Positions 1 to 51,355 of a stretch of DNA of 51,355 nt are shown in pieces. Location: the IMG/VR virus record IMGVR_UViG_3300043540_000524, positions 1-51,355 of that record; one strand, written 5' to 3'. The position numbers and the translations under genes are program-made. The DNA comes from a virus. Within the stretch, counting starts at the first letter, position 1. Each line of letters begins with the position of its first letter. The notes beneath the pieces were generated by a model. That model did not search any database, was not told the origin of the DNA, and saw nothing but the letters and a program-made list of their open reading frames with translations.

Positions 1-225
1 AGGCATTATAACCAAGAGCCATGGAATTGGTCAGGTTATTAACAGAGGCATCTGCGGACGTACCTAGGAATGTCATCTGGTTATACAAAACCTGAGCGCT
101 TCCTGCGGCCCAACCCATGATGGTATTTTGAGAGCCCGTGGTGGAAAGGACCCCCGTGTAAGATCCCAGCGATGCGTTATATGCTCCCGAGGTTAGGGCA
201 GCTAGTGATTTTCTTCCTAGAGCGA
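1..225. repeat. Terminal overlap, left copy (same as 51131-51355)
   Basis: Bases 1-225 match 51131-51355 except at one position (98 is g, 51228 is a). The tail-fibre frame is kept across the join: 1777 nt here plus 413 nt at the right end make 730 codons. This shows a circular map rather than two gene copies. A true terminal repeat of the virion would split this gene, so an assembly overlap is the simpler reading. Confidence 0.9.
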
Positions 226-1777
226 CGTTGTCGTGCCCTGTGGTAGCGGCAACTAAAGCCTGAGATCCTATTGCGGTATCAACGATAACTTCCCCAAAGG
301 AATTCGTTGTGCTAGGGACGGCAAGGTTTGCTGCTCTGTACCCAAAAGCCGTGTTGTTGGATTGGGTAGTGAGACTTCCTAAAGCACTTCGTCCCACCGC
401 TATGTTTTGAATACCCGTAGTTAGACCAAAAAGAGCAGATACAGCCATGGCCGTATTATCAGTGCCGTTAGTAGCGGTAAACAAGGCCCCCTCTCCGACA
501 GCAGTATTATTAGATCCGGTATTAATAGCTTGTCCGGCTAGTGTTCCTACGAGGGTATTGTTTATTCCGGAACTAACAGCGTACCCTGCCCTATTTCCAA
601 CGCCCACGTTGTTATTAGCGTTGTTGGTGAACAATGCCTGGTTTCCGAGGGCGGTGCTATTTAGTCCAGTGGTGTTGGTTCTTAAACTTTCCGCCCCGAA
701 GGAGGTGTTCCCAGATCCGGTAGTGGTGTGTTGCTGGGAGTTCCAGCCCACAGCGGTGTTATCGAAAGGGGTTGTCATTGACGAGAGGGCGTTTGTACCT
801 ATTCCTACTGCGCTGCCTCCCGTGTTCGTAAAATTACCTGCGTTATTGCCTAAATAAATAGCGTTGATACCAAAGGAATGCAGTATTGCCACCCCATCTT
901 GTACTAATTGTCCAACAGTACTAGTGGTAGTTGGGATGTTAATAACGCCTGTAGTGGAGATAGTCCCTTGGACGTCTAAGGAAACCGCAGGGGAGCTAGT
1001 GCCTACGCCTAATCTAAAGTTAGTGTCGTCCCAAAATAATTTGGCATTGTCTTGTGTTAGTCCCGTACCATTACCGAAAGGTATTGAGCCTGCGGTGAAA
1101 GCCTCTGACCCTGTAGTGATAGAGTGCTCTACTCCAGCAGAGTCTTGGTATACTAATAAATCGCCCGCTTTAAAATACAGGTAGTCGTTACCCGAGGGAG
1201 GGGGAGGGGTGGGTTTTGCTATTTGTGCAAACTGTATTGCCGCATTGGAAAGGGCTAATATTCCGGAGTTGGGTTGTAGGGTGAACTGTCCGTCCCCTAC
1301 GATTAGCAGGTCGTCGTTGGATTCTATTTTAAAACCCGTGCCACCTAAATAAAATAAGTTTAAATTGTTTCCGCTTCCGTCATTCAGGGAAAGTTCTGAG
1401 GCGTTTACAAGAGAGTGCTGGTTTAAATCGACGTCTTTATCAGCCCCACTAAAAGGAACAAAGGTGTCGCTATTTACTAGAATGGTAGCAGCGGCTACAT
1501 CAGCGGCAGTTTGTCCGCCTACTAGATTTACAGTGGTGGGAACAGATCCAGGACCTGTTGCAGTTACATCTCCAATGAGGGCATCAATAGCAATTGCGGC
1601 CCCGGGAGTAGCAATTGGAACCCATGAATGTGACGTTGTATTGTATGCGTATAGGGTATCGGTATCAAGTGCTATAGCTAGATCGCCACTATTTCCTACG
1701 AGAGGAAAATTGGCAGCCGTAGGGTATTTAGTGATAGAGTTTTCATTAGGATAGGACGAGTAAATTGGTGCAGACAT
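1..1777 (-). CDS. Tail fibre with YadA-head-like repeats (5' part, runs off the left edge)
   Basis: This is the N-terminal 592 codons of a tail-fibre protein. It starts at the ATG at 1777, just downstream of the 1782-2156 gene, and is open to base 1. Because 1-225 repeats 51131-51355, the gene continues at 51130 and stops at 50718, giving about 729 residues in one frame. The N-terminal third has the fibre motif [14 protein letters not shown], shared with the fibres at 48.5-50.7 kb. The rest is a run of degenerate repeats of about 14-20 residues of the type NNTAVGxxAL. Such repeats resemble the left-handed beta-roll heads of trimeric autotransporter adhesins. It probably forms a trimeric receptor-binding fibre. 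Receptor unknown. Confidence 0.85.
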   Translation of the reverse strand, partial: MSAPIYSSYPNENSITKYPTAANFPLVGNSGDLAIALDTDTLYAYNTTSHSWVPIATPGAAIAIDALIGDVTATGPGSVPTTVNLVGGQTAADVAAATILVNSDTFVPFSGADKDVDLNQHSLVNASELSLNDGSGNNLNLFYLGGTGFKIESNDDLLIVGDGQFTLQPNSGILALSNAAIQFAQIAKPTPPPPSGNDYLYFKAGDLLVYQDSAGVEHSITTGSEAFTAGSIPFGNGTGLTQDNAKLFWDDTNFRLGVGTSSPAVSLDVQGTISTTGVINIPTTTSTVGQLVQDGVAILHSFGINAIYLGNNAGNFTNTGGSAVGIGTNALSSMTTPFDNTAVGWNSQQHTTTGSGNTSFGAESLRTNTTGLNSTALGNQALFTNNANNNVGVGNRAGYAVSSGINNTLVGTLAGQAINTGSNNTAVGEGALFTATNGTDNTAMAVSALFGLTTGIQNIAVGRSALGSLTTQSNNTAFGYRAANLAVPSTTNSFGEVIVDTAIGSQALVAATTGHDNVALGRKSLAALTSGAYNASLGSYTGVLSTTGSQNTIMGWAAGSAQVLYNQMTFLGTSADASVNNLTNSMALGYNA

Positions 1778-16071: not shown

Positions 16072-18009
16072 TTACGCACTAAGAGCGATGATGCAATTCC
16101 ACCCTGGGGCACTACATATTAAGTTCGCATAATAGCCAATTCTGAATTCCAACGCATCGGCATTACCAACGCGAAGTCCTTCAAGACCTTCCATACCGTA
16201 CGTGAGGATATGGGGCGCCTTTCCAAGCGACCGCAACTTCCACACAGACATATCTAACAAATAGGCAGTCTGTTGTTGGCAGTTTCTATCCGGCACAACC
16301 GTGATGGGGCCGTATGGAGCATGAACCGTGATGCCTTTGAAAGCGATATCGCCTTCTCCACCACGCACGTCAACATACTGAACCTTACTTCCCAACTCTT
16401 TTTCAAGAGCTGCATAGGAAGCGAAGTTCATAAAGCACATGTCGGGCTGTCCGCCTTCTCGTGCCGTTATGCTAGCGCCGTCAATAAGCGCTTCTTCGAT
16501 CGATTCGCCTGAACCATCGAACCGTACCCCTGCGAGACGGGTAACGTCTTGAGAGCGATCAACGCCCCAGAAGTTATCACCAGGAGCTGGAGCAACGGGA
16601 GGGAGCCAAGCAGCAAGTCCGCTAATCTTTAAGAATTGCGAAGTGTTTGCCGCGCCTGAAGCCCCGATGTCACCCTGTACGACCAGGAAGCTACCAACTG
16701 CGAATTGAGCAGAAGGAGTACCACTGGACGATTGGAGGATGAGCTGCGCGCTCGAACGGTTAATGTTCGTAACCACTGCAGTAGTAGTCGAAGGAACGCC
16801 ACCATCAGTAGACGTAGCAACTAAAGTCATTCCAACTTCGAATTGCACGATGTCTTGCTGATCGGAAAGAACGATCGTCATGGTCGTTCCAACTAAGGAG
16901 TAGCTTCCGATTTGACCGCGAGTACCAGTTCCACTTCGGAACAAGGCGGAAGCCAAGTCGTTCGAGATGGATCGGAACGCTGCGTCAACTTGCAACTTAC
17001 CTTGGTCTAAGAACGCACCAGCATTGTCACCAGTAGCAGCTTCCAAGAGCTCGTTACTGATAGAGGCAATGACATAGTTCGTTGTTCTGTAGACAAAGAA
17101 CGATTGCATTTGGGTAGCCGTTTGGTTGTTCTGTGCGTTCGAAAACGTAGCAGAACGTCCTTGCGGATCGCCATAGATAAGAGGCACGGGTATCAGTCTG
17201 TTATCGTAAGAGTTTTTTATCTCTTACTTCTTAAACTTTCGTAAGTATTTAATAGCCATTTCAAGTCTTTCTATAGAATCATCAAAGTATCCAAGTCCTG
17301 GATTACATTTGGTACATAGAAGGGCTCTTACCTGGCCTGTGCTATGGTCATGGTCTACGTGAAGCCCTCTTCGGAATTCAGTAGCGTTCCTACCACAGCA
17401 AGCACAACATCCTTTTTGCTCATCAAACATCTTGTAGTAATCTTCTACAGAGATGTTGTAGTTCTTCTTAAGATCTGATTTAAAATCAAGTCTCTTAATA
17501 ATCTCTGGGTTATCTTTTCTATGCTGTGTTCGCCATGCTTTTTTGCAGGGTTTGCACCAGCTCGATACTCCGGAGGATGTCGTGCCATCTTTCCCAAATT
17601 CAGACTCTTGCTTCTCTGACTTACATCTGGGACATACTTTTCGTTTAAGCTCAGCGTACATTATTAACCCACTAAAGGTTATTGGTCACTCTTGGTACTA
17701 TTATATTCCGTTGTTACATCGGGTTCAAGTACTACGCGTTACAGTGGCAGGAGGGTTTTGGTCTCCTGCTTACCACGGGGTTGGCATTTCAGCTTCCACC
17801 GTTTTTGACCAATTTGCTACGATAGGTTGCCCTACCGAGGTACATTATAGTTTATACTTACCAGCCGCTCCTTCTTTACTTTCATCTTTTGGGATGATTG
17901 CAAGAAGAGGATTTCGTTTGTACACGAGGTCATTCATGTACTCTGTAGGATTGTCGTACAACTCTTTGAGCGACGCAATCTGGTTTGTAGCTGTATTAAA
18001 AATAGACAT
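16072..18009 (-). CDS. Major capsid protein, split by a group I intron (join of 17854-18009 and 16072-17193)
   Basis: Exon 1 (156 nt) starts at the ATG at 18009, with GGAG five to six nt upstream, and ends ...AAGKY. Exon 2 (1122 nt) begins IPVPLIYGDPQGRSATF. Joining them gives one 425-residue protein in frame, with both exon ends on codon boundaries. The order scaffold, this gene, decoration, adaptor identifies it as the capsid protein. Exon 2 carries a beta-rich insertion (about residues 150-235 of the joined protein) and a conserved region (WLPPVAP...FWGVDRSQDVTRLAGVRF). The protein at 38278-38967 shares this region. Unspliced, exon 1 would end two codons into the intron (KYKL then stop), giving a peptide of about 54 residues. 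Confidence 0.85.
17194..17853 (-). ncRNA. Group I intron in the capsid gene
   Basis: The limits come from restoring the protein frame: the 5' exon ends in T (17854) and the intron ends in G (17194), as group I introns do. Visible elements (minus strand): P1, exon GTAT with intron GTAC at 17840-17843, has the expected U-G pair at the splice site and a 10-nt loop. P3 is GGTCAA (17805-17810) with TTGAACC (17722-17728). P6 is GCAGGAG/CTCCTGC (17763-17769 and 17747-17753). P7 is GTACT/AGTAC (17728-17732 and 17695-17699). A TAACC/GGTTA hairpin precedes the endonuclease gene, and a GTAAGAG/CTCTTAC hairpin lies near the 3' end. Confidence 0.75.
17224..17661 (-). CDS. Intron-encoded endonuclease VII-type homing endonuclease
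   Basis: The product has 145 residues and matches the recombination endonuclease VII family (beta-beta-alpha-metal fold). It has an N-terminal zinc site (CPRCKSEK, then WCKPCKK), a CCACCGR cysteine pair, the catalytic segment HVDHDHSTGQVRALLC and the trailing TKCNPGLGYFDD. The gene lies wholly inside the capsid-gene intron, in the 3' part of the RNA. It probably promotes intron homing into intron-free capsid genes of co-infecting phages. The ribosome site (GTGGG, about 9 nt upstream) is weak and within a hairpin, consistent with low expression. Confidence 0.85.
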   Translation of the reverse strand: MYAELKRKVCPRCKSEKQESEFGKDGTTSSGVSSWCKPCKKAWRTQHRKDNPEIIKRLDFKSDLKKNYNISVEDYYKMFDEQKGCCACCGRNATEFRRGLHVDHDHSTGQVRALLCTKCNPGLGYFDDSIERLEMAIKYLRKFKK

Positions 18010-36525: not shown

Positions 36526-37002
36526 ATGAATAAGAGAGCAACAGCAAGTAAACTAGACGGATATGAAATGGTAGGCAAGCCTGCAAATACAGGAAAACGG
36601 GAGAAAAAACCCATTATTGCCTATTATCAAACCAATGAAAATAAGTCTAACCACCCTAAAGTGCGTGTTTTAAAACCAGGGGATGAGATAGTGGGTACTT
36701 ATGTCCACACTTTTGTTGACAAAGGAGAAGATGGGGAAAAGGATAAGTTAAATTATCTCATTGAAACCTCTAAAGGCAATGTCACGGTTAAAGGGTATAC
36801 GGTCCTCAATGACCGCATGATGCTTGTTACGCGCAACACCCCGGTTCGCATTGTATATGTCGGAGTCGGTGAGTCTTCTAAAAAAGGACGTAAACCTCCA
36901 TTTCTATTTGAAGTGTATCGTCAAAAGGCCTCCGATCTTCAGGATACCTCGGATTTAGATACTGAAAGTGATGATTCTGAAGATGAGAATGATCCCTTTT
37001 AA
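36526..37002 (+). CDS. Single-stranded DNA-binding protein (SSB-like)
   Basis: The product has 158 residues. The core (about 45-135) is beta-rich with KVRVLKPGDEIVGTYVHTF and VTVKGYTVLNDRMMLV, consistent with an OB fold. The last 25 residues are strongly acidic and end ENDPF, like the acidic tip of bacterial SSB that recruits partner proteins. A very good ribosome site (AAAGGAGAG) and a terminator after the gene suggest high expression. The neighbours are a nuclease and a helicase-like ATPase. Confidence 0.7.
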   Translation: MNKRATASKLDGYEMVGKPANTGKREKKPIIAYYQTNENKSNHPKVRVLKPGDEIVGTYVHTFVDKGEDGEKDKLNYLIETSKGNVTVKGYTVLNDRMMLVTRNTPVRIVYVGVGESSKKGRKPPFLFEVYRQKASDLQDTSDLDTESDDSEDENDPF

Positions 37003-37110: not shown

Positions 37111-37449
37111 ATGAATGCTTCTAGAGAACTTGTTAACTATTTTTGTTCCAATTGGAAAAAGAAATATAGCCTTCCTTACGTTCCAAATCTACACAGAGAT
37201 CCTCAAATATTTGATGACCTATTGCAAGAGTTCTCTTCTGATTCTATAAAGAGGATGATTTCTTTCTATCTTTTTCATTTAGAAAGTATGTTTGCAGAAG
37301 AAGGGGGGCATACGCTGGGTATTTTTAGAGCTATGCTTCCCACTGTGATTGCACAGATGAAAAAAGCAGAGAAATTAGAAGAAGAAGCAAAAGCAGCAAA
37401 TAAAACCGACTACCTAAGACTTATTCAGAAGAGAAAAGAAACCAAATGA
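37111..37449 (+). CDS. Replication-associated helical protein, possible helicase loader
   Basis: The start ATG at 37111 follows AAAGGAGG; longer readings run into the terminator. The product has 112 residues, all helical: ELVNYFCSNWKKKYS, then DIx-type segments (PQIFDDLLQEFSSDSIKRMI) and GGHTLGIFRAMLPTVI. A short helical protein directly before the helicase gene, overlapping it by 4 nt, would fit a loader or partner of the helicase. This is inference from position. Confidence 0.5.
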   Translation: MNASRELVNYFCSNWKKKYSLPYVPNLHRDPQIFDDLLQEFSSDSIKRMISFYLFHLESMFAEEGGHTLGIFRAMLPTVIAQMKKAEKLEEEAKAANKTDYLRLIQKRKETK

Positions 37450-38276
37450 AAACTTTAGAAGAAGCCTCTATTAAGAATAACTGGGATTATTTCATTAACT
37501 ACCTGGATAGGAGGGTTAATGGGGTTCTCACTGGTATTGAAGAACTCGACGCCTATCTTCTAGGACTGGGGAATGTCACGGTGTTCCAGGGCGATACGGG
37601 GACGAATAAATCCACCCTCATGCTCCAAATTGCCCTCCATCAATTGGAACAAGGGCACCCCGTACTTATGCTGGATAAAGAGAATGGGCAAGGTAGAATT
37701 AGAAGCCGCCTAACATGCCAAATGAACGCTATTTCTGAAAATGACCTTTTGGTGGCCGATCGAGCCCAAAGACTTAAATGGGTAAAGCCTGTTATGGAGC
37801 TACCTTTTTTCGTCTATACAGAAAGTGTGAAGGACTTTGAGGTTATTGAGAAAAGGATAGAGGAGATGTCCCGCGCCTTCCCTACTAAGCCCCTCATGTT
37901 CATGGTAGACTCCCTACAAGCCCTGACCCCCGTAACTGAGGACCAGAGAGTTAGCCTTGAAAAATGGCTTTATTGGGCGGATAGCATGAAGATACAGTAT
38001 GACGGCCGCCTTACTATTCTAATGACTTCTGAAGTAAGAAGAGCTGCCTACGAAGCGCAAGAAGCTGTTGGTAGGGCTAAGGGTACCAATGCGGTTGAGT
38101 ACAAAGCTGAGGTTCTTTTAAACTTAAAAGAAATGAAGGATACTGGACAAATCAAAGTTGAAATAGCTAAGAATCGTGATAATATCAAAGGAGGGGTTAT
38201 TAAACTAGAAAAGATGTTCTCTGATCCTTCTAACAATAGATCATTCATGTTTAAGCTTAAAGGGAGTTTGCGATAA
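37446..38276 (+). CDS. RecA/DnaB-like ATPase (replicative helicase or recombinase)
   Basis: The product has 276 residues. Walker A is GDTGTNKST (49-57) and Walker B is LMFMVDS (150-156, D155). TSEVRR near residue 200 and AKGTNAVEYKAE fit the DnaB/RadA-like core. A DnaB N-terminal domain is absent, so it resembles a stand-alone helicase domain. It lies between the presumed loader, the SSB-like gene and the polymerase, so a helicase role in phage replication is likely. Confidence 0.75.
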   Translation: MKTLEEASIKNNWDYFINYLDRRVNGVLTGIEELDAYLLGLGNVTVFQGDTGTNKSTLMLQIALHQLEQGHPVLMLDKENGQGRIRSRLTCQMNAISENDLLVADRAQRLKWVKPVMELPFFVYTESVKDFEVIEKRIEEMSRAFPTKPLMFMVDSLQALTPVTEDQRVSLEKWLYWADSMKIQYDGRLTILMTSEVRRAAYEAQEAVGRAKGTNAVEYKAEVLLNLKEMKDTGQIKVEIAKNRDNIKGGVIKLEKMFSDPSNNRSFMFKLKGSLR

Positions 38277-38277
38277 T

Positions 38278-38967
38278 ATGATTTGCCAAACTTGTAAATC
38301 AGATTGCATCAGGAACGAGGCTCTAGGGAAAGAGTTTTACTATTGCCGCTCTTGCAAGAAAGAACCAGAAATAGAAACTCCCGCCCATAGTACCACTCTT
38401 TCTGGGCACGACTTTTATTCTAGAGTGCAAACTACAGATCGTTCTTCTAGTTTAGTAGGAACCCATATAGTAATTCCTGTTATGCTGTGTAGCACTCAAG
38501 GAACAGGCGGTTTTCCTTTAGTACCGCCCATTTCGACTACCGCTTGGTATATACCCATTCCCAAAAGTAGAACTATAAAACCATATCTTCGTACTTGGAT
38601 TCCGGCTTTGGATCCTAATTCTAAGGACAGTCATTTTGGTGTTAATAGAAGTTCTGATATAGTACGGCTTTCTGGAACTAGGTATATTGTTGGCGCTTCT
38701 TTGGAAGGGACTCTGGTCGAGGCGTGTAATAATATTGGAAGAGCAGGGGGGGCAGTCGATTCCATTTACATTAACCCTTTTGATAAAAAACACTTTCTCT
38801 TTTTAAATGAGATACCCCATTCCTATGGAAGAGCTATCGTTTATGAGGATCTTTCCTGCCCACAAGGATTAGTATATTGTTGCCAGCAAGATACTTGGTC
38901 ATATGATAATCATCTAAACATTTTATTGTGTTCTGGTCCTTCGGCAAACGGGGTTATTATTTTATGA
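38278..38967 (+). CDS. Zinc-ribbon protein fused to a capsid-protein-like domain
   Basis: The product has 229 residues. The first 30 form a zinc ribbon (CQTCKSDC...YYCRSCKK; C3, C6, C23, C26). From about residue 104 the sequence resembles the C-terminal part of this phage's own capsid protein. WIPALDP compares with WLPPVAP, FGVNRSSDIVRLSGTRY with WGVDRSQDVTRLAGVRF, AGGAVDSIYIN with GGQPDMCFMN, and NILLCSGPSANGVIIL at the end with NLICSAPGWNCIIAL. It is between the helicase and polymerase genes, coupled by 1-4 nt on both sides, so it is expressed early. A capsid-derived decoy or regulator is one idea; the function is unknown. Confidence 0.7.
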   Translation: MICQTCKSDCIRNEALGKEFYYCRSCKKEPEIETPAHSTTLSGHDFYSRVQTTDRSSSLVGTHIVIPVMLCSTQGTGGFPLVPPISTTAWYIPIPKSRTIKPYLRTWIPALDPNSKDSHFGVNRSSDIVRLSGTRYIVGASLEGTLVEACNNIGRAGGAVDSIYINPFDKKHFLFLNEIPHSYGRAIVYEDLSCPQGLVYCCQQDTWSYDNHLNILLCSGPSANGVIIL

Positions 38968-39182
38968 AAAAGCCAAAATGCAAAGAATGTGGGTCGACAA
39001 AGAGAATTAAAAAGCTGCATGCAATCATTTGTGGAAAATGTCGTATTGTTCTCCCTAATGATGAGTACGCTGAAGAAATACGTTCGGTTGTACAAGAAAT
39101 TGTAACTTTGTTAAAGATTAATAGTTATTTAAACGATCGTGGATATAGCATTATTATTGCTCCCATTGAGAAAAAAGGGTAA
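38964..39182 (+). CDS. Small zinc-ribbon protein (72 residues)
   Basis: The ATG at 38964 overlaps the previous stop (ATGA); an upstream start would lie inside that gene. PKCKECGSTKRIKKLHA and then IICGKCRIV give a four-cysteine ribbon. A helical C-terminus follows (EEIRSVVQEIVTLLKI). It may bind DNA or RNA in the replication complex. No family is assigned. Confidence 0.55.
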   Translation: MKKPKCKECGSTKRIKKLHAIICGKCRIVLPNDEYAEEIRSVVQEIVTLLKINSYLNDRGYSIIIAPIEKKG

Positions 39183-39218: not shown

Positions 39219-41279
39219 ATGAGACCTACTAATCCAAAATATATGTGTGTGGATGTCGAGACTACAGGTCTTGATTGGACGCGGGACACTTTGCACGGTT
39301 TCGCGGTTGCTTACGAAGAAGAGGAGGCTTTCTACGTTCCTTCTTGGAATATCCCTTCGTTTGTGAAAGAGGACCTGGAAAACCCTTCAATTAAAAAGAT
39401 TGGTCACAATTTCCACGGGTTCGATGCCAAATTCATCTTTAAGAGCGGGATTAAGATACAGGGAACTTTTATTGAGAATATGGGGATATGGCAGCTAGTG
39501 GATGATACCACGCCGTTGGGCTTGAAGTGGCTATCAGAACAGCACATAGGGGCTAGCTCCTTAGATAAGAAAAGACTTTTGGATCAGGCCATAGAAAGAT
39601 CCGGAGCTAAGAATATTGCAGGGCTCTGTTTCAAAGACCTGCACGACCCTTCCCACCCATACCTAAAGGTAATTGGGGATTACTGCGAAGAGGACGCGAA
39701 TAATACCCTGTCTTTGTCTCTTCTTGGCATGCAAAAACTTAAAGAGCTAGACCAGCAACTACGAAGTAACTACAGGGTTTCTAAAACCCCGTTGGATTAC
39801 TTCAAGGAAGAGTTCACCCCATTGGAGTACGTTCTCTTTAAAATGGAGACTAAAGGGTTCCGCGTGAATATTAAAGTAATTGAAGAGCTTAAAAAAGAGG
39901 CGGAGAAGAAGAAAGAAGAAATTACCGAACGGCTTAACAGAGGCTTTAAAAAAGAGATAGAGATCATTGAAAAACAGATCTGGGAAGAGGCGGTTTCTAG
40001 AGTTGTGACCCCTAAGGCAAAAGCATCCCGTGTTCAAGGGCAAGGGAAGCTGGCTTTTAGCTGGGAAAATAATAACCACGCCGCTAAGGTATTTTTTGAA
40101 CAAGGCAACATACCAGAGGATCTGGTCACCAGGACTGAAAAAGGGTCCTATGCAACAGACAAAACCACCCTGCAAAAACTCCTGCAAGAGTTACCTAAGG
40201 AACACAAAGTAAGAAGGGCTCTCCCTCTCTATGCCGAATACAAACTTAACCAAAAGACCCTCACCACTTACACTGGGGATACTAAAAAAGGTATATATTC
40301 TAAAATAAGACAGGGAGAGGATGGAAACCATTATATTTATCCTACTTTCAGACAAACAACAAACACTGGAAGACTCGCTTGTAAATCACCTAATATGCAG
40401 AACATTCCCAGAGGAAGTAAGATTAAAGAACTCTTCATTCCCACTAATGACAACAATGTATTTGACCACTTCGATTATTCTCAAATTGAACTAAGACTTG
40501 CTGGACATCTCTCTAAAGATCCCGCTATTATTAGTTCCTATCTAAATAAAGAGGATTTGCATAAGCAGACCGCAGCAACCATTTTTGATCTTCCGCTACG
40601 GGATATAAACGACATACAGCGCCAGGGCGGAAAAACTACAAATTTCCTAACAATTTACAAAGGATCCGCTTTTAGACTTCAAGAAAGCTTGAGAGAAGGG
40701 GTAAAATTAGATTTTAGTCTGGACGAATGCAAGGAATTTATATCTCGGTTTTTTGATAAATATAGAGACTTGGATCAGTATTTGAAAAACGTCCTTTCTT
40801 TCGTTGTTAAGAACGGGTTCGTTATTTCAGAAGCAGGGAGAATGCGTCGGTTGCCTGATATCTTCTACGGAGAAGAAGGTAATTTAGACTTTAGATTAAG
40901 GCAGTTTAATGGTTCCCAAGAACAGAGACAAAAACTTATATCTATCTTGAGAGATCAGCAAATTTATAATCCCTCTGAGCAAGACATTTTCTGGCTAGCT
41001 TATAAAAAATATAACCACGCTAGTAAGCAAGCCTTCAATTTCCCAGATCAATCTTTAGCGGCTTCCTTAGCTAAGAGGGCCATGATTCAACTTGATAAAG
41101 AAGGGTTCGATATTAGAAATCAAGTACACGACGCTCTTGATATTGAACGGGCTTTGTGCGATAATGAGGCTACTTCTAAAGTTAGAAACATCATGGAAAA
41201 TGTATTTCCAGAGTGCTTAGTTCCCTTAACTACTGATTATAAGACACTTAGGAGTTTTTCTGAAGAAGATAAAGCGTAA
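39219..41279 (+). CDS. DNA polymerase, family A with 3'-5' exonuclease
   Basis: The product has 686 residues, like phage Pol I. Exonuclease motifs: DVETTG (12-17), GHNFHGFDAKF (62-72) and YCEEDANN (155-162). Polymerase motif A is FDYSQIELRLAG (418-429, D419). In motif B, R468, K472, F476 and Y480 keep the RxxxKxxxFxxxY spacing, but Y is followed by K (YKG) rather than G. Motif C is QVHDALDIE, so the usual HDE reads HDA, with D638 kept and the second acid replaced by A639. The 5'-3' exonuclease domain is absent. It replicates the phage genome with the SSB-like protein and helicase. Confidence 0.9.
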   Translation: MRPTNPKYMCVDVETTGLDWTRDTLHGFAVAYEEEEAFYVPSWNIPSFVKEDLENPSIKKIGHNFHGFDAKFIFKSGIKIQGTFIENMGIWQLVDDTTPLGLKWLSEQHIGASSLDKKRLLDQAIERSGAKNIAGLCFKDLHDPSHPYLKVIGDYCEEDANNTLSLSLLGMQKLKELDQQLRSNYRVSKTPLDYFKEEFTPLEYVLFKMETKGFRVNIKVIEELKKEAEKKKEEITERLNRGFKKEIEIIEKQIWEEAVSRVVTPKAKASRVQGQGKLAFSWENNNHAAKVFFEQGNIPEDLVTRTEKGSYATDKTTLQKLLQELPKEHKVRRALPLYAEYKLNQKTLTTYTGDTKKGIYSKIRQGEDGNHYIYPTFRQTTNTGRLACKSPNMQNIPRGSKIKELFIPTNDNNVFDHFDYSQIELRLAGHLSKDPAIISSYLNKEDLHKQTAATIFDLPLRDINDIQRQGGKTTNFLTIYKGSAFRLQESLREGVKLDFSLDECKEFISRFFDKYRDLDQYLKNVLSFVVKNGFVISEAGRMRRLPDIFYGEEGNLDFRLRQFNGSQEQRQKLISILRDQQIYNPSEQDIFWLAYKKYNHASKQAFNFPDQSLAASLAKRAMIQLDKEGFDIRNQVHDALDIERALCDNEATSKVRNIMENVFPECLVPLTTDYKTLRSFSEEDKA

Positions 41280-41607
41280 AAAGTCTAGGAAGGCTAGCAA
41301 GTATCCTTGGTTCTATAAGTTCCTGTTTGCGGCCGCTCGTAGGACGTTTAGATGGTCTCCAGAAAGAAGGGCTGTTAAGGCTAGGGCGAAAGATAGGTGC
41401 GAGAAATGCCACAAAAAGGTAGCAGATATTGTGGTAGATCATATTGAACCTGTCATTAGTCCTTCTGCAGGATTTATATCTTGGGATACTTACTATTTGC
41501 GCTTGTTTGTGAATCAGGATCAAATGCAGGGTTTGTGTAAAAAGTGTCATTCTGAAAAAACACGGGCAGAAAATGCAGAAAGAAGGCTGAATGCAAAAAA
41601 AGAATAA
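41260..41607 (+). CDS. HNH endonuclease with CTG start, overlapping the polymerase end
   Basis: This frame has no ATG or GTG near its start. The best start is CTG at 41260, five nt after TAGGAG inside the last polymerase codons; this gives 115 residues. The protein is clear: a basic N-terminus, then RCEKCHKK, DIVVDHIEPV and MQGLCKKCHSEKTRAE, the HNH fold with its zinc cysteines. It overlaps the polymerase by 20 nt and the next gene by 17 nt. It is a free-standing homing-type nuclease placed next to the polymerase, a common target. Confidence 0.75.
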   Translation: MKKIKRKKSRKASKYPWFYKFLFAAARRTFRWSPERRAVKARAKDRCEKCHKKVADIVVDHIEPVISPSAGFISWDTYYLRLFVNQDQMQGLCKKCHSEKTRAENAERRLNAKKE

Positions 41608-42325
41608 GATTTTACTCTATGACATTGAAACCTCACCACTTATAACGTACAACTGGGCTCTGTATGACGAAAGACCAATTGCAATGGAACAGGATTGGCA
41701 ACTTCTAACCTTTTCGTATAAGTTTTTGGGTGAAAAAGAGGTTTTTGGCCATACCCGACTAGAGTTTAAAGATAAGACAGATAAATCATTAACAAAAAAG
41801 CTGTGGAGAGTATTAAATTCTGCCGATGTTCTCGTTGGCCATAATTCAATATCCTTCGACTCTAAGAAGAGTAATGCTAAGTTCGCAGAGTACGATCTCC
41901 CACCAATCAAATGTATGCAGATTGATACAAAAAAAATTGCAAAGTCCCTTTGCAATTTCACATCCAATTCTTTAGATGCTCTAGGGAAGTTATTAGGTTG
42001 CGGAGAGAAGAAGAAGCACAGCGGGTTTGACATGTGGAAGAAATGTATGCGAGGGGATAAGAAAGCATTTGCAGAAATGCTCTCCTACAACAAAATGGAT
42101 GTTATACTTCTGGAAAAGATCTACATGAAGTTGCGCCGCTATGGAAGAGCCCTCCCCAATGCAAGTTTGCTAGAAACGGGTAAAATGGGTTGTGCTGCTT
42201 GTGGTAATTCAAAGATAGTTTCTAAGGGCGTTTGGGTAACAGAAAAAACCATACAGGAAAAGTACTCTTGCTCTAAGAAAAATTGCGGATATATTTTCGT
42301 AGGTAGACGGGGGTTAGTGGGATGA
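41591..42325 (+). CDS. DnaQ/RNase H-like 3'-5' exonuclease with C-terminal zinc ribbon
   Basis: The product has 244 residues. The nuclease motifs are YDIETSP (D11, E13), VGHNSISFDSKKSNAKF and YNKMDVILLEKIY. The last 50 residues carry CAACG and CSKKNCGY, a zinc ribbon. It resembles the YprB-type exonuclease group. The start lies inside the HNH gene. It may act in DNA or RNA trimming with the polymerase, whose own exonuclease is also intact. Confidence 0.75.
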   Translation: MQKKNKILLYDIETSPLITYNWALYDERPIAMEQDWQLLTFSYKFLGEKEVFGHTRLEFKDKTDKSLTKKLWRVLNSADVLVGHNSISFDSKKSNAKFAEYDLPPIKCMQIDTKKIAKSLCNFTSNSLDALGKLLGCGEKKKHSGFDMWKKCMRGDKKAFAEMLSYNKMDVILLEKIYMKLRRYGRALPNASLLETGKMGCAACGNSKIVSKGVWVTEKTIQEKYSCSKKNCGYIFVGRRGLVG

Positions 42326-42813
42326 AACTAGTTCCTCTCACACAAGGCAAGTTTGCCAAGGTGGATAACGAGGATTGGATTAGGGTTTCCCAATATAATT
42401 GGCATTTCAACGCCAAGTATGCTAAAAGAAAAGTGCTGAGGGAAGAAACGGGCGGTTTAGTAAAAAGACAAGGGATGCATCGGTTTATAATGGGTATTGA
42501 TGATCCCTCAGTACTAGTGGATCATATAAATAATGATACTTTGGATAATAGAAAACAAAATTTGAGATTGTGTGGACATACTCAAAACTGTTTCAATAGA
42601 AAACCACGTAGTAAAATAGGTTTAAAAGGGGTTAATTTGGATGGTAGTAGGTACAGGGCTCGCATACAAGGTACTTCTCTAGGAAACTTTAGGACTGCCA
42701 AAGAGGCTGCTATGGCTTATAATAAAGCGGCTTTGAAATTATATGGAAGATTTGCTTGGTTAAATTATATTGCGGAGGATCATTATGAAAAACCCAAGAA
42801 GAAAAAAACCTAA
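42322..42813 (+). CDS. HNH homing endonuclease with AP2 DNA-binding domain
   Basis: The product has 163 residues. The HNH part includes MHRFIMG, VDHINNDTLDNRKQNLR and TQNCFNR. The AP2-like part follows (GLKGVNLDGSRYRARI, then LGNFRTAKEAAMAYNKAAL and LYGRFAWLNY). This two-domain form is typical of free-standing phage homing endonucleases. It overlaps the exonuclease gene by 4 nt; no intron is evident around it. Confidence 0.85.
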   Translation: MKLVPLTQGKFAKVDNEDWIRVSQYNWHFNAKYAKRKVLREETGGLVKRQGMHRFIMGIDDPSVLVDHINNDTLDNRKQNLRLCGHTQNCFNRKPRSKIGLKGVNLDGSRYRARIQGTSLGNFRTAKEAAMAYNKAALKLYGRFAWLNYIAEDHYEKPKKKKT

Positions 42814-43401: not shown

Positions 43402-43929
43402 ATGAGTGTATTAACATTTGAACGAACAGTCACATTTTGTGGGCCTATAAATGACGAAACCACAGGGCTTCTAATCCACGCCCTGTCTTCACTAAACGCA
43501 TATGAAGATGAAAAACCCCTGCTCATCCTCAACTCACCAGGAGGCAACTTAGACGATGGTATTGCCTTATATGACTACATAAGAACCCTGCCCTACAAAC
43601 TCACCTGCCATATCTTTGGGCAAGCAAGCTCGGCCGCATCTGTTATGCTTCAAGCCTGCGATAAAAGACTCATTGCAGAAAACGGGGCGGTAATGATCCA
43701 TAGGGGTGAGCTAAGCATTCCTCCTACACATCCCGACGACGCAGAACGAATGTTGCAAGCTCAAAATAGACTACAAGAAATAATGTTGCAAATATACTTA
43801 AAACACTGTAAACTTTCTGAAAAGGACTTAAAAAAAGCTCTTTTATTTTCCTCCTACTTTCTCGGAGAAGAGGCGGTTAAAGCAGGGCTAGTTGATGGGG
43901 TACTGGCAAATGGAACAATTAAAGTTTAA
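43402..43929 (+). CDS. clpP: ClpP-like serine protease
   Basis: The product has 175 residues with the ClpP fold: a beta start FCGPINDETTGLLI, NSPGGNLDDGIALYDYI, the nucleophile in GQASSAASVML (S77), the base in MIHRGE (H100) and the end FLGEEAVKAGLVDGVL. At the place of the usual catalytic Asp before FLxxEEA the sequence reads SSY, so the acid may be missing or placed elsewhere. Many phages use such a protease for capsid maturation, but this gene lies far from the head genes and has its own promoter, so an early role is possible. Confidence 0.85.
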   Translation: MSVLTFERTVTFCGPINDETTGLLIHALSSLNAYEDEKPLLILNSPGGNLDDGIALYDYIRTLPYKLTCHIFGQASSAASVMLQACDKRLIAENGAVMIHRGELSIPPTHPDDAERMLQAQNRLQEIMLQIYLKHCKLSEKDLKKALLFSSYFLGEEAVKAGLVDGVLANGTIKV

Positions 43930-48537: not shown

Positions 48538-49626
48538 TTAATATCCTCCAATAATGAGATAGCCTGTTGTAGTTGCCCCGGTCATTGTCACGGCAGTAGT
48601 GGATAGTGATGTAGCTACCGCCGCCCCTACTTGGTTTGTTGTTATAACTGCGGGGGTGTTGGAAAAAGCTGTAGGGAAGGTGTAGGTGGCGGTCCCTAGT
48701 AAAGCACTACAGTAAACAATTACTTTTTTGTAACTTGATCCAGCAAAAGGCTGACTGAACACAGCACTTCCAGATGTGGAGCCTGAAACGATAGTTTGTG
48801 TTGCCGTGCTGTTAAATACAGGAGATGTGTGTTTTCCACTGGAGTCTACTTTAGCAAGTATAGTTCCAGAGCTATCTTGCCACTCCTGGAGATCGGACGT
48901 TTGTGAAGCCGCTCCACGAGCAATCATGGTTACTGTGGAAGAGTTTTCAGATACTATACCAAGCATTCCCAACTGAGTCGTTGTATTAACTAGAATAGGC
49001 CCACTACCCATAATCTGATCACTTCGACTTGGACTCACACCAATGTATGTACCATAAGCCATGTAGGGGGTCTCTAGAAAATTTACCGGGTCTACATCAA
49101 AATGGCCTATAGTAAAATCACCAATTATCAGATTTCCGGAAGCGCCAATGTGCACCCTGGCAGTTGTCTGCATTTTAAAGTACAAGCCGTGTGATGTTTG
49201 CGCGTCAATAAAAGGGTACCCGGAGCCGTCCACTCCCAAATGAAGGTAGTTAGTAGCACTGCCGGAGTAAAACCTAGCATCTCCCCCCCTTATATCCAAG
49301 GCCGTTTGGGGAGTAGAAGTACCTATTCCTAATCTAAAGTTAGTGTCGTCCCAAAATAATCGGTTGTTATCCTGGGCTGGATTGCCAGATCCGTCGGAAA
49401 ATACAATAGATCCCTGAGTAAGACCTCCAGTGCCTGTGGTATTGACTGTAATAGCTCCAGAGGTATTTGAGAGAGTTATCCCAGAACCCGGTGTTAGAGT
49501 AGACAGAGAATAAGTAGAGCTTGTGGAATTTCCGATCAGTAACTGGCCATCTGTAGGTGAGGTAGAAGTACCCGTACCACCATCTGGTATCAATAGTACG
49601 CCGGTTGTAAACATTGTGCTACTCAT
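48538..49626 (-). CDS. Tail fibre protein, paralogue 3
   Basis: The product has 362 residues and is a close paralogue of the 49633-50712 product. The shared order is an N-terminal [37 protein letters not shown], a variable middle, the segment [18 protein letters not shown], then [19 protein letters not shown] and a beta-rich C-terminus ending GYLIIGGY. Some blocks are nearly identical in DNA between the copies. It is probably part of a fibre that holds several related chains. Confidence 0.75.
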   Translation of the reverse strand: MSSTMFTTGVLLIPDGGTGTSTSPTDGQLLIGNSTSSTYSLSTLTPGSGITLSNTSGAITVNTTGTGGLTQGSIVFSDGSGNPAQDNNRLFWDDTNFRLGIGTSTPQTALDIRGGDARFYSGSATNYLHLGVDGSGYPFIDAQTSHGLYFKMQTTARVHIGASGNLIIGDFTIGHFDVDPVNFLETPYMAYGTYIGVSPSRSDQIMGSGPILVNTTTQLGMLGIVSENSSTVTMIARGAASQTSDLQEWQDSSGTILAKVDSSGKHTSPVFNSTATQTIVSGSTSGSAVFSQPFAGSSYKKVIVYCSALLGTATYTFPTAFSNTPAVITTNQVGAAVATSLSTTAVTMTGATTTGYLIIGGY

Positions 49627-49632
49627 GCTAGT

Positions 49633-50712
49633 TTAATATCCCTCTATGAGGATAAATCCTGTTGTAGTAGTTCCAGTAACTGTCATAGTGGAAGCAGATA
49701 GACTAGTGACTATAGCGCTGGCTACTTGATTGGTAGTTACAATGGCAGGAGTGTTTGCAAATGCAGTTGGGAAAGTGTAGGAGGCCGTACCCACCAGAGA
49801 TGAAAGTCTTACAATGACTTGCTTATAGCTACTACCAGCAAAGGGTTGGCTAAATATAGCATTTCCAGATGTGGAGCCTGAAACGGTAGTTTGTGTTGCC
49901 GTGCTATTTAGGACAGGGCTTGTGAGGTTTCCATTAGAGTCTATTTTAGCAAGTATAGTTCCAGAGCTGTTTTGCCACTCCTGGAGATCGGCCGTTTGTG
50001 AAGCCGCTCCACGAGCAATCATGGTTACTGTGGAAGAGTTTTCAGAAACAACACCCAGCATCCCAAGTTGTGTGGTGGTGTGGACCAGTATGGGGCCGCT
50101 GCCCATGATGCAGTCCGCTCTAGGAGCAAGTGTATTGGACCCGCAATACGTTCCATAAGCAAGATCTGGGGTTTCTAGATAATTTACTGGATCAGCCGTG
50201 GTGTTGCCTATTATAAGGCCACCGCTTAACCCAATGTGCATCCTATTCACACCTTGAGTTTTAAAAAGCAGCCCTAGGGTGGATTCAGAATCAATAGCCG
50301 GTCTTCCGGAACTGTCTACATAAAGACGTAAGTAGTTAGTGGTTTGGTTTGAATATATGAAAGTGTCACCACCACGAACCTCTAGTGCCGCCCCCGGAGT
50401 TGCGGTACCGATACCAAGCCTAAAATTAGTATCATCCCAGAATAATTTGGCGTTATCTTGAGAAATTAATCCAGAAGCATTTGCAAATAGCACTGAGCCC
50501 TGAGTAAACCCCGTTGCCAGAGTTGCGCTGAGTGTTATAGAACCTGGGGCATTGGTAATTGAAACCCCCGCCCCTGCTGTTAGCGTAGACAAAGAATAGT
50601 TAGAGCCAGCAGTACTCCCAATTAGAAGCTGGCCATTCGTGGGGAGAGTAGATAGACCAGTGCCTCCATCTGGTATTTTCAAAATTCCACTATTGAACAT
50701 TGTATTTGACAT
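49633..50712 (-). CDS. Tail fibre protein, paralogue 2
   Basis: The product has 359 residues. It follows the large YadA-like fibre gene and has the same anchor motif ([17 protein letters not shown]) and the block [19 protein letters not shown] found in 48538-49626. The middle (about residues 125-200) and the C-terminal 80 residues differ from the paralogue, as expected for receptor-binding regions that evolve by exchange. Confidence 0.75.
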
Positions 50713-50717
50713 GTCGC

Positions 50718-51355
50718 CTATGCCTTCTCAATTAACTGATAAGCTACCACAGAAGTATCAGCGCTATCCGCAGAACTTATAGTAAACCCAGTTCCAGGAG
50801 TTGTGCTTGTCACGGCAACTGCCACAGGAATAGTTATAGTTCCCAGTGACTGAACAGTTAAATAAATAAGAGTGTTTGAAGTAACTGATGTATTTGACAC
50901 AACAACAGAACCCGCGGAAAGAGTGGCTGTTCCAACTCTAGCCCCAATTTGTACCTTGGTTCCGCTGGAATTTAAGTTGTATAAATTACCGTTGGAGTCA
51001 ATAAAGAGTCTGTTGTGCCCCGATGCAGGAGTTGCTGGGGTACTAGATTGAGGTATGTCTAAAAACCCAGGTAAACCAATTCCTGTTACAGAAGTATTAC
51101 CCATTTGTATAAAATTACTTACGGATACGGAGGCATTATAACCAAGAGCCATGGAATTGGTCAGGTTATTAACAGAGGCATCTGCGGACGTACCTAGGAA
51201 TGTCATCTGGTTATACAAAACCTGAGCACTTCCTGCGGCCCAACCCATGATGGTATTTTGAGAGCCCGTGGTGGAAAGGACCCCCGTGTAAGATCCCAGC
51301 GATGCGTTATATGCTCCCGAGGTTAGGGCAGCTAGTGATTTTCTTCCTAGAGCGA
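50718..51355 (-). CDS. Tail fibre with YadA-head-like repeats (3' part, continues at 1-1777)
   Basis: This is the C-terminal part of the gene described at 1-1777. Bases 50718-51130 add 413 nt, and 51131-51355 repeat 1-225. After the last [13 protein letters not shown]-type repeats comes a short beta-rich tail with [17 protein letters not shown] and a domain of about 70 residues rich in Thr, Ser and Val, ending YQLIEKA. Full length is about 729 residues. Confidence 0.85.
51131..51355. repeat. Terminal overlap, right copy (same as 1-225)
   Basis: This is identical to 1-225 except for 51228 (a for g at 98). The substitution falls inside the tail-fibre gene. It marks closure of a circular map. 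Confidence 0.9.

Follow-up and report, generated by a model that had tools for sequence, protein, structure and literature searches.

A truncated paralog of the major capsid protein carries a zinc ribbon and lies among the replication genes of an uncultured phage

Duplicated capsid genes can take on new roles. For example, the vertex protein gp24 of phage T4 is a late structural paralog of the capsid protein with the full HK97 fold. Fragments of shell proteins can also occur as separate products. In the retrotransposon Ty1, p22 is the C-terminal half of Gag (PMC4599808), and the restriction factor p22/p18 is a truncated form of Gag (PMC4599808, PMC8458377); p22 is made from an internal transcript and is identical in sequence to Gag. 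Capsid proteins trigger bacterial immunity and are targets of interference. CapRel, the best known of the capsid sensors, chiefly contacts the N-terminal beta-sheet of the capsid P-domain and the spine helix; the evidence comes from a predicted complex, from escape mutants and from HDX (PMC9712102). A TIR-based capsid-sensing system also exists (PMC11312562), and the blocking of assembly among prophages has been described for Tab (PMC10884400). A limited literature search gave no report of phages in which a truncated HK97-type paralog of the capsid protein sits among the replication genes. In this study, we describe a gene that very probably belongs to this kind.

The gene comes from an uncultured phage (IMG/VR record IMGVR_UViG_3300043540_000524), of which the whole stretch of 51,355 nucleotides was analysed; this stretch is called the window. 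The initial annotation had placed the gene among replication genes, and had seen a zinc ribbon at its N-terminus and, from about residue 104, a resemblance to the phage's own capsid protein with the N-terminal part of the capsid protein missing, all of which was borne out. We believe that this fusion is a real and unusual gene and that its origin from the major capsid protein (MCP) is well supported. The gene, its parts and its neighbours are as follows.

37446..38276, plus strand, DnaB/KaiC-like helicase, upstream of the fusion gene
38278..38967, plus strand, fusion gene, zinc ribbon and truncated MCP paralog, 229 aa (ORF, MCP homology, ortholog in the same slot of the relative G001)
38278..38370, plus strand, N-terminal zinc ribbon, residues 1-31 (15 of 33 columns invariant in five proteins with differing C-termini; pLDDT about 84)
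38371..38586, plus strand, linker, residues 32-103 (pLDDT about 40 over 33-97; MCP match not significant)
38587..38964, plus strand, MCP-derived domain with an A-domain-like core, residues 104-229 (hhalign, Foldseek and the order of secondary-structure elements)
38964..39182, plus strand, small zinc-ribbon ORF, downstream of the fusion gene
39219..41279, plus strand, family A DNA polymerase, PolA (Pfam PF00476, E 3e-62)

The stop codon of the helicase lies 1 nt upstream of the fusion ATG (the two genes overlap by 4 nt in G001), and the stop codon of the fusion is overlapped by the ATG of the small zinc-ribbon ORF (ATGA). Because of this compact spacing, we infer that the fusion is co-expressed with the replication genes, before capsid synthesis. 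An MCP gene would be expected in the structural block, next to scaffold and portal; the fusion gene is about 21 kb distant from there and on the other strand, with helicase and PolA on either side. The MCP of the window belongs to the SU10-type family (PF17236) and is encoded in two parts.

16072..17193, minus strand, MCP exon 2 (Pfam SU10_MCP, 33.3 bits against a cut-off of 24.1; 143 MCP relatives in IMG/VR; the ORF caller puts the start at 17187)
17854..18009, minus strand, MCP exon 1 (MSIFNTATNQ...AGKY matches the uninterrupted MCP of G001; splice point approximate)

An intron-like insert (17194-17853, minus strand) breaks the MCP gene after AGKY and includes an HNH endonuclease ORF (17224-17661); the MCP block of G030 has two HNH ORFs as well. 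An Rfam search for the capsid intron gave no match.

Residues 104-207 of the fusion aligned with the MCP exon-2 ORF (16072-17187, minus strand) in BLASTP with 48.1 bits and an E-value of 4e-11, and phmmer gave an E-value of 2e-11 for the same pair. The Smith-Waterman score of the fusion against the MCP was 117, and the maximum among 2000 shuffles was 57. When the two fusion proteins were compared with 81 MCPs by hhalign (Prob 99.4%, E 5e-22, 126 columns), the alignment spanned all of residues 104-229 and reached the last MCP strand, which is the MCP C-terminus. In an all-against-all BLAST of the ORFs of the window, the fusion and the MCP were the only paralog pair bridging the replication and structural blocks. 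BLASTP, the shuffle test, the profile comparison and the ORF comparison thus indicate that the homology goes beyond chance. The fusion is about 31% identical to the MCP of its own phage (38-45 of 123-133 positions against MCPs), and the identity is densest in residues 104-137, where 18 of 34 columns agree with the MCP consensus. The fusion protein had no match of its own in Pfam. An assembly chimera or artefact was ruled out, because G001, a second contig, carries this fusion at the equivalent position. On this evidence, we consider it very probable that the MCP of this phage lineage gave rise to the gene as a truncated, domesticated paralog, placed behind a mobile zinc-ribbon module. Like T4 gp24, it would be a duplicate of the capsid gene that took on a new role; unlike gp24, it is truncated, fused to a ribbon and located among replication genes. 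The linker (residues 32-103) is probably disordered along most of its length. Its residues 36-103 showed no similarity to the MCP, and an MCP origin of the linker was unsupported, a single weak match (p about 0.05) to the MCP of G001 being discounted.

Residues 104-229 were modelled well (pLDDT about 88), with a helix (124-132) and strand (134-137), a second helix (142-155), a strand (162-165) and a short helix, followed by strands 178-181, 184-190, 198-202, 207-210, 215-218 and 225-228. These elements correspond one-to-one and in order to those of the MCP model. Foldseek placed the SU10 capsid chains 7z4a and 7z48 on top (E 3.8e-4, probability 1.0, with TM-scores of only about 0.3), followed by HK97, and the BFVD matches were viral capsid proteins. 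Because the input alignment of the model contained MCPs, this match to capsid folds does not count as independent evidence. Relative to the MCP, the N-arm, E-loop, spine helix and insertion domain are gone. The A-domain helix and loop are largely lost as well, and so are approximately 34 residues with the long P-domain strand. The retained part is roughly the axial (A) domain; we take the names of the retained and lost parts from what is known of the HK97 fold. A complete shell-building fold (N-arm, E-loop, spine helix, P-domain and A-domain) is thus not present. Without an N-arm, E-loop, spine helix, insertion domain or long P-domain strand, the fusion protein should not build shells, and a role in the shell is unlikely. 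In summary of its relation to SU10-type MCPs with their HK97 fold, the fusion is alike in the 126 homologous C-terminal residues, the C-terminal end and the predicted order of elements, and differs by the zinc ribbon, the location in the replication block and the lost assembly parts.

The fusion might instead pair with the capsid subunits of superinfecting relatives, or with those of its own phage until late in infection, and poison assembly, in the way that p22/p18 of yeast Ty1 acts on Gag. It is a C-terminal fragment of a shell protein, an architecture like that of Ty1 p22 (PMC4599808), and the blocking of assembly is a known weapon between phages (Tab, PMC10884400). The likeness to p22 is an analogy only, since the fusion is a diverged, separate gene of a dsDNA phage. 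Moreover, the parts that make contacts between subunits (E-loop, N-arm and P-domain elements) are absent, the A-loop is deleted, and the identity to the phage's own MCP is low, so that we regard such poisoning as unlikely. Another explanation, a host-sensor decoy as raised by the initial annotation, is that the fusion occupies a capsid sensor of the host without triggering it, and later capsid synthesis goes unnoticed. Bacterial sensors of this kind exist (CapRel, PMC9712102; the TIR-based system, PMC11312562), and early expression, if it takes place, would be the right timing. However, CapRel chiefly reads the N-terminal sheet of the P-domain and the spine helix, which are missing in the fusion, and only its minor contacts with an A-domain loop could be imitated; this weakens the explanation for CapRel-type sensors. 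No MCP relatives were found in GTDB genomes, therefore no host can be named, and hence no sensor. We consider a sensor decoy improbable.

The zinc ribbon of the fusion has cysteines C3, C6, C23 and C26 in a CxxC-16-CxxC pattern, and its two CxxC knuckles (C3-x2-C6 and C23-x2-C26), whose cysteines are invariant in the five proteins aligned, are consistent with a zinc ribbon. Very similar ribbons (55-67% identical) begin other short proteins in G028, L119, L123 and relatives, whose C-termini are unrelated, and weaker zinc-ribbon matches were found in G024, G008 and L273. Judging from this distribution, the zinc ribbon is a separate, mobile module. It was also considered that the other ribbon proteins are fusions to other virion proteins, but for those in G028, G024 and G008 the C-termini had no further match within the respective genome.

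The initial annotation had suggested looking for the same fusion in related phages. Among the 143 relatives of the window MCP found in the IMG/VR scan, 30 records were searched with the fusion protein, and one true ortholog was detected, in G001, which is the nearest sequenced relative (MCP 82-83% identical). This ortholog has 270 aa, and the order helicase, fusion, small zinc ribbon and PolA is the same as in the window, the ORF after the fusion being a similar small Cys-rich one. In INPHARED phages, no close relatives of the fusion, the G001 ortholog, the ribbon or the MCP were found. The known orthologs of the fusion are thus two; they are 32-33% identical overall and agree at 40 of 126 positions in the MCP-derived domain, and are about equally far from each other and from MCPs. 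Ten residues are common to both fusions and occur in none of 39 MCPs, and both fusions lack the same 34-residue MCP block (SLGK...RIGYY). Because of these private residues, the common deletion and the same slot, the two fusions most likely come from a single event. In the tree, they fall inside the MCP subgroup of the window (16 rows, 100/100), with saturated branches that do not fix the exact sister.

The position and conservation of the gene also bear on whether the domain still has anything to do with capsids. Its links with the capsid may have been lost, so that the domain is a scaffold in an accessory protein of DNA replication whose ribbon binds nucleic acid or the replisome. The tight placement between helicase and PolA, with its 1-nt spacing and ATGA overlaps, would agree with this, and of the two parts the ribbon has changed less than the MCP-derived one. 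However, the helicase is 74% and PolA 67% identical between the window and G001, against 32-33% for the fusion. In addition, an unrelated 116-aa ORF fills the slot between helicase and PolA in L186, a more distant relative (PolA 38% identical), which shows that the core machinery does not need the fusion. We believe that a replication role of this kind is somewhat unlikely. High divergence alone is no proof of conflict, because the SSB-like neighbour (36526-37002) has also changed fast and is 33-37% identical to its G001 counterpart.

The divergence could also mean that a piece of the capsid gene landed downstream of a zinc-ribbon ORF and is now evolutionary debris under drift alone. The divergence is very high, the linker and the extent vary, and the third-position GC of the two fusions is low (0.31 and 0.27), compared with 0.41-0.49 in the helicase, PolA and MCP of the window. 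Against this, the frames are open in both phages, with chances of a stop-free frame by base composition of 6e-7 (229 codons) and 2e-8 (270 codons in G001), the slot is kept and the cysteines are invariant. The identities between the window and G001 at codon positions 1, 2 and 3 were 0.74, 0.74 and 0.39 in the zinc ribbon and 0.45, 0.59 and 0.44 in the MCP part, respectively, with position-2 identity somewhat inflated by the protein-guided codon alignment. These values suggest constraint, strong in the ribbon and weaker in the MCP part. The open frames, the conservation of position 2, the kept slot and the invariant cysteines make mere debris very improbable.

Screening of all the retrieved DNA with a capsid HMM gave one more capsid fragment, a 115-aa ORF in G030 (L166:2818-3165, minus strand) that matches MCP positions 229-305 (E 2e-7). 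As in the fusion, what is retained is the A-domain core of this MCP family; unlike the fusion, the ORF has no zinc ribbon and lies in the late block, between the portal and scaffold genes, and it is a separate event. A pattern scan of IMG/VR found no further copies of this ORF. The A-domain of the MCP has thus been kept on its own at least twice, in the fusion lineage and in G030.

Taken as a whole, we tentatively favour the account in which a capsid paralog came to mimic the capsid in soluble form without assembling, with the competition proposed below much less certain than the origin. The fusion would be made with the replication proteins, ahead of the capsid, and would be unable to join shells. 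It may then act as a soluble mimic of the axial (A) domain and compete for a partner that normally binds capsid subunits, either in the assembly pathway of a rival phage or as a capsid-directed factor of the host, while the zinc ribbon would anchor it to protein or nucleic acid. The mimic part changes fast and the ribbon more slowly, which fits an interface under conflict. As a counterpoint, contacts at the capsomer centre would be made by the A-domain helix and loop, and these are reduced in the fusion. If the fusion is such a mimic, it would be a case of a phage deploying the structural protein that it conserves most as a soluble competitor. The gene raises the question of whether fragments of the capsid protein serve tailed phages to regulate or police shell assembly, as happens in retrotransposons. 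It is conceivable, though we think it rather doubtful, that phages of this group repeatedly make soluble weapons or shields out of parts of their own shell protein, here an early, ribbon-tagged A-domain competing for capsid-directed factors, with the ORF of G030 as a second case.

Some other genes of the window were also observed. The replication block includes, adjoining dUTPase and distant from the capsid genes, a ClpP-like protease (43402-43929, plus strand; Pfam CLP_protease E 4e-26; PHROG head maturation protease). A link of this head protease to the fusion was not specific, since relatives that lack the fusion have the ClpP-like gene as well. A protein like the exonuclease subunit of DNA polymerase (41591-42325, plus strand; phrog_403) is encoded by a separate gene, although PolA has its own 3'-5' exonuclease domain. 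Directly 3' of it lies an HNH endonuclease (42322-42813, plus strand; phrog_99), for which the ORF comparison gave no counterpart in G001. Tandem related proteins span the ends of the record (48538-51248 and 1-1777, minus strand), where a 66% identical pair shares a stretch with two more; these are possibly variants of the tail-fibre type.
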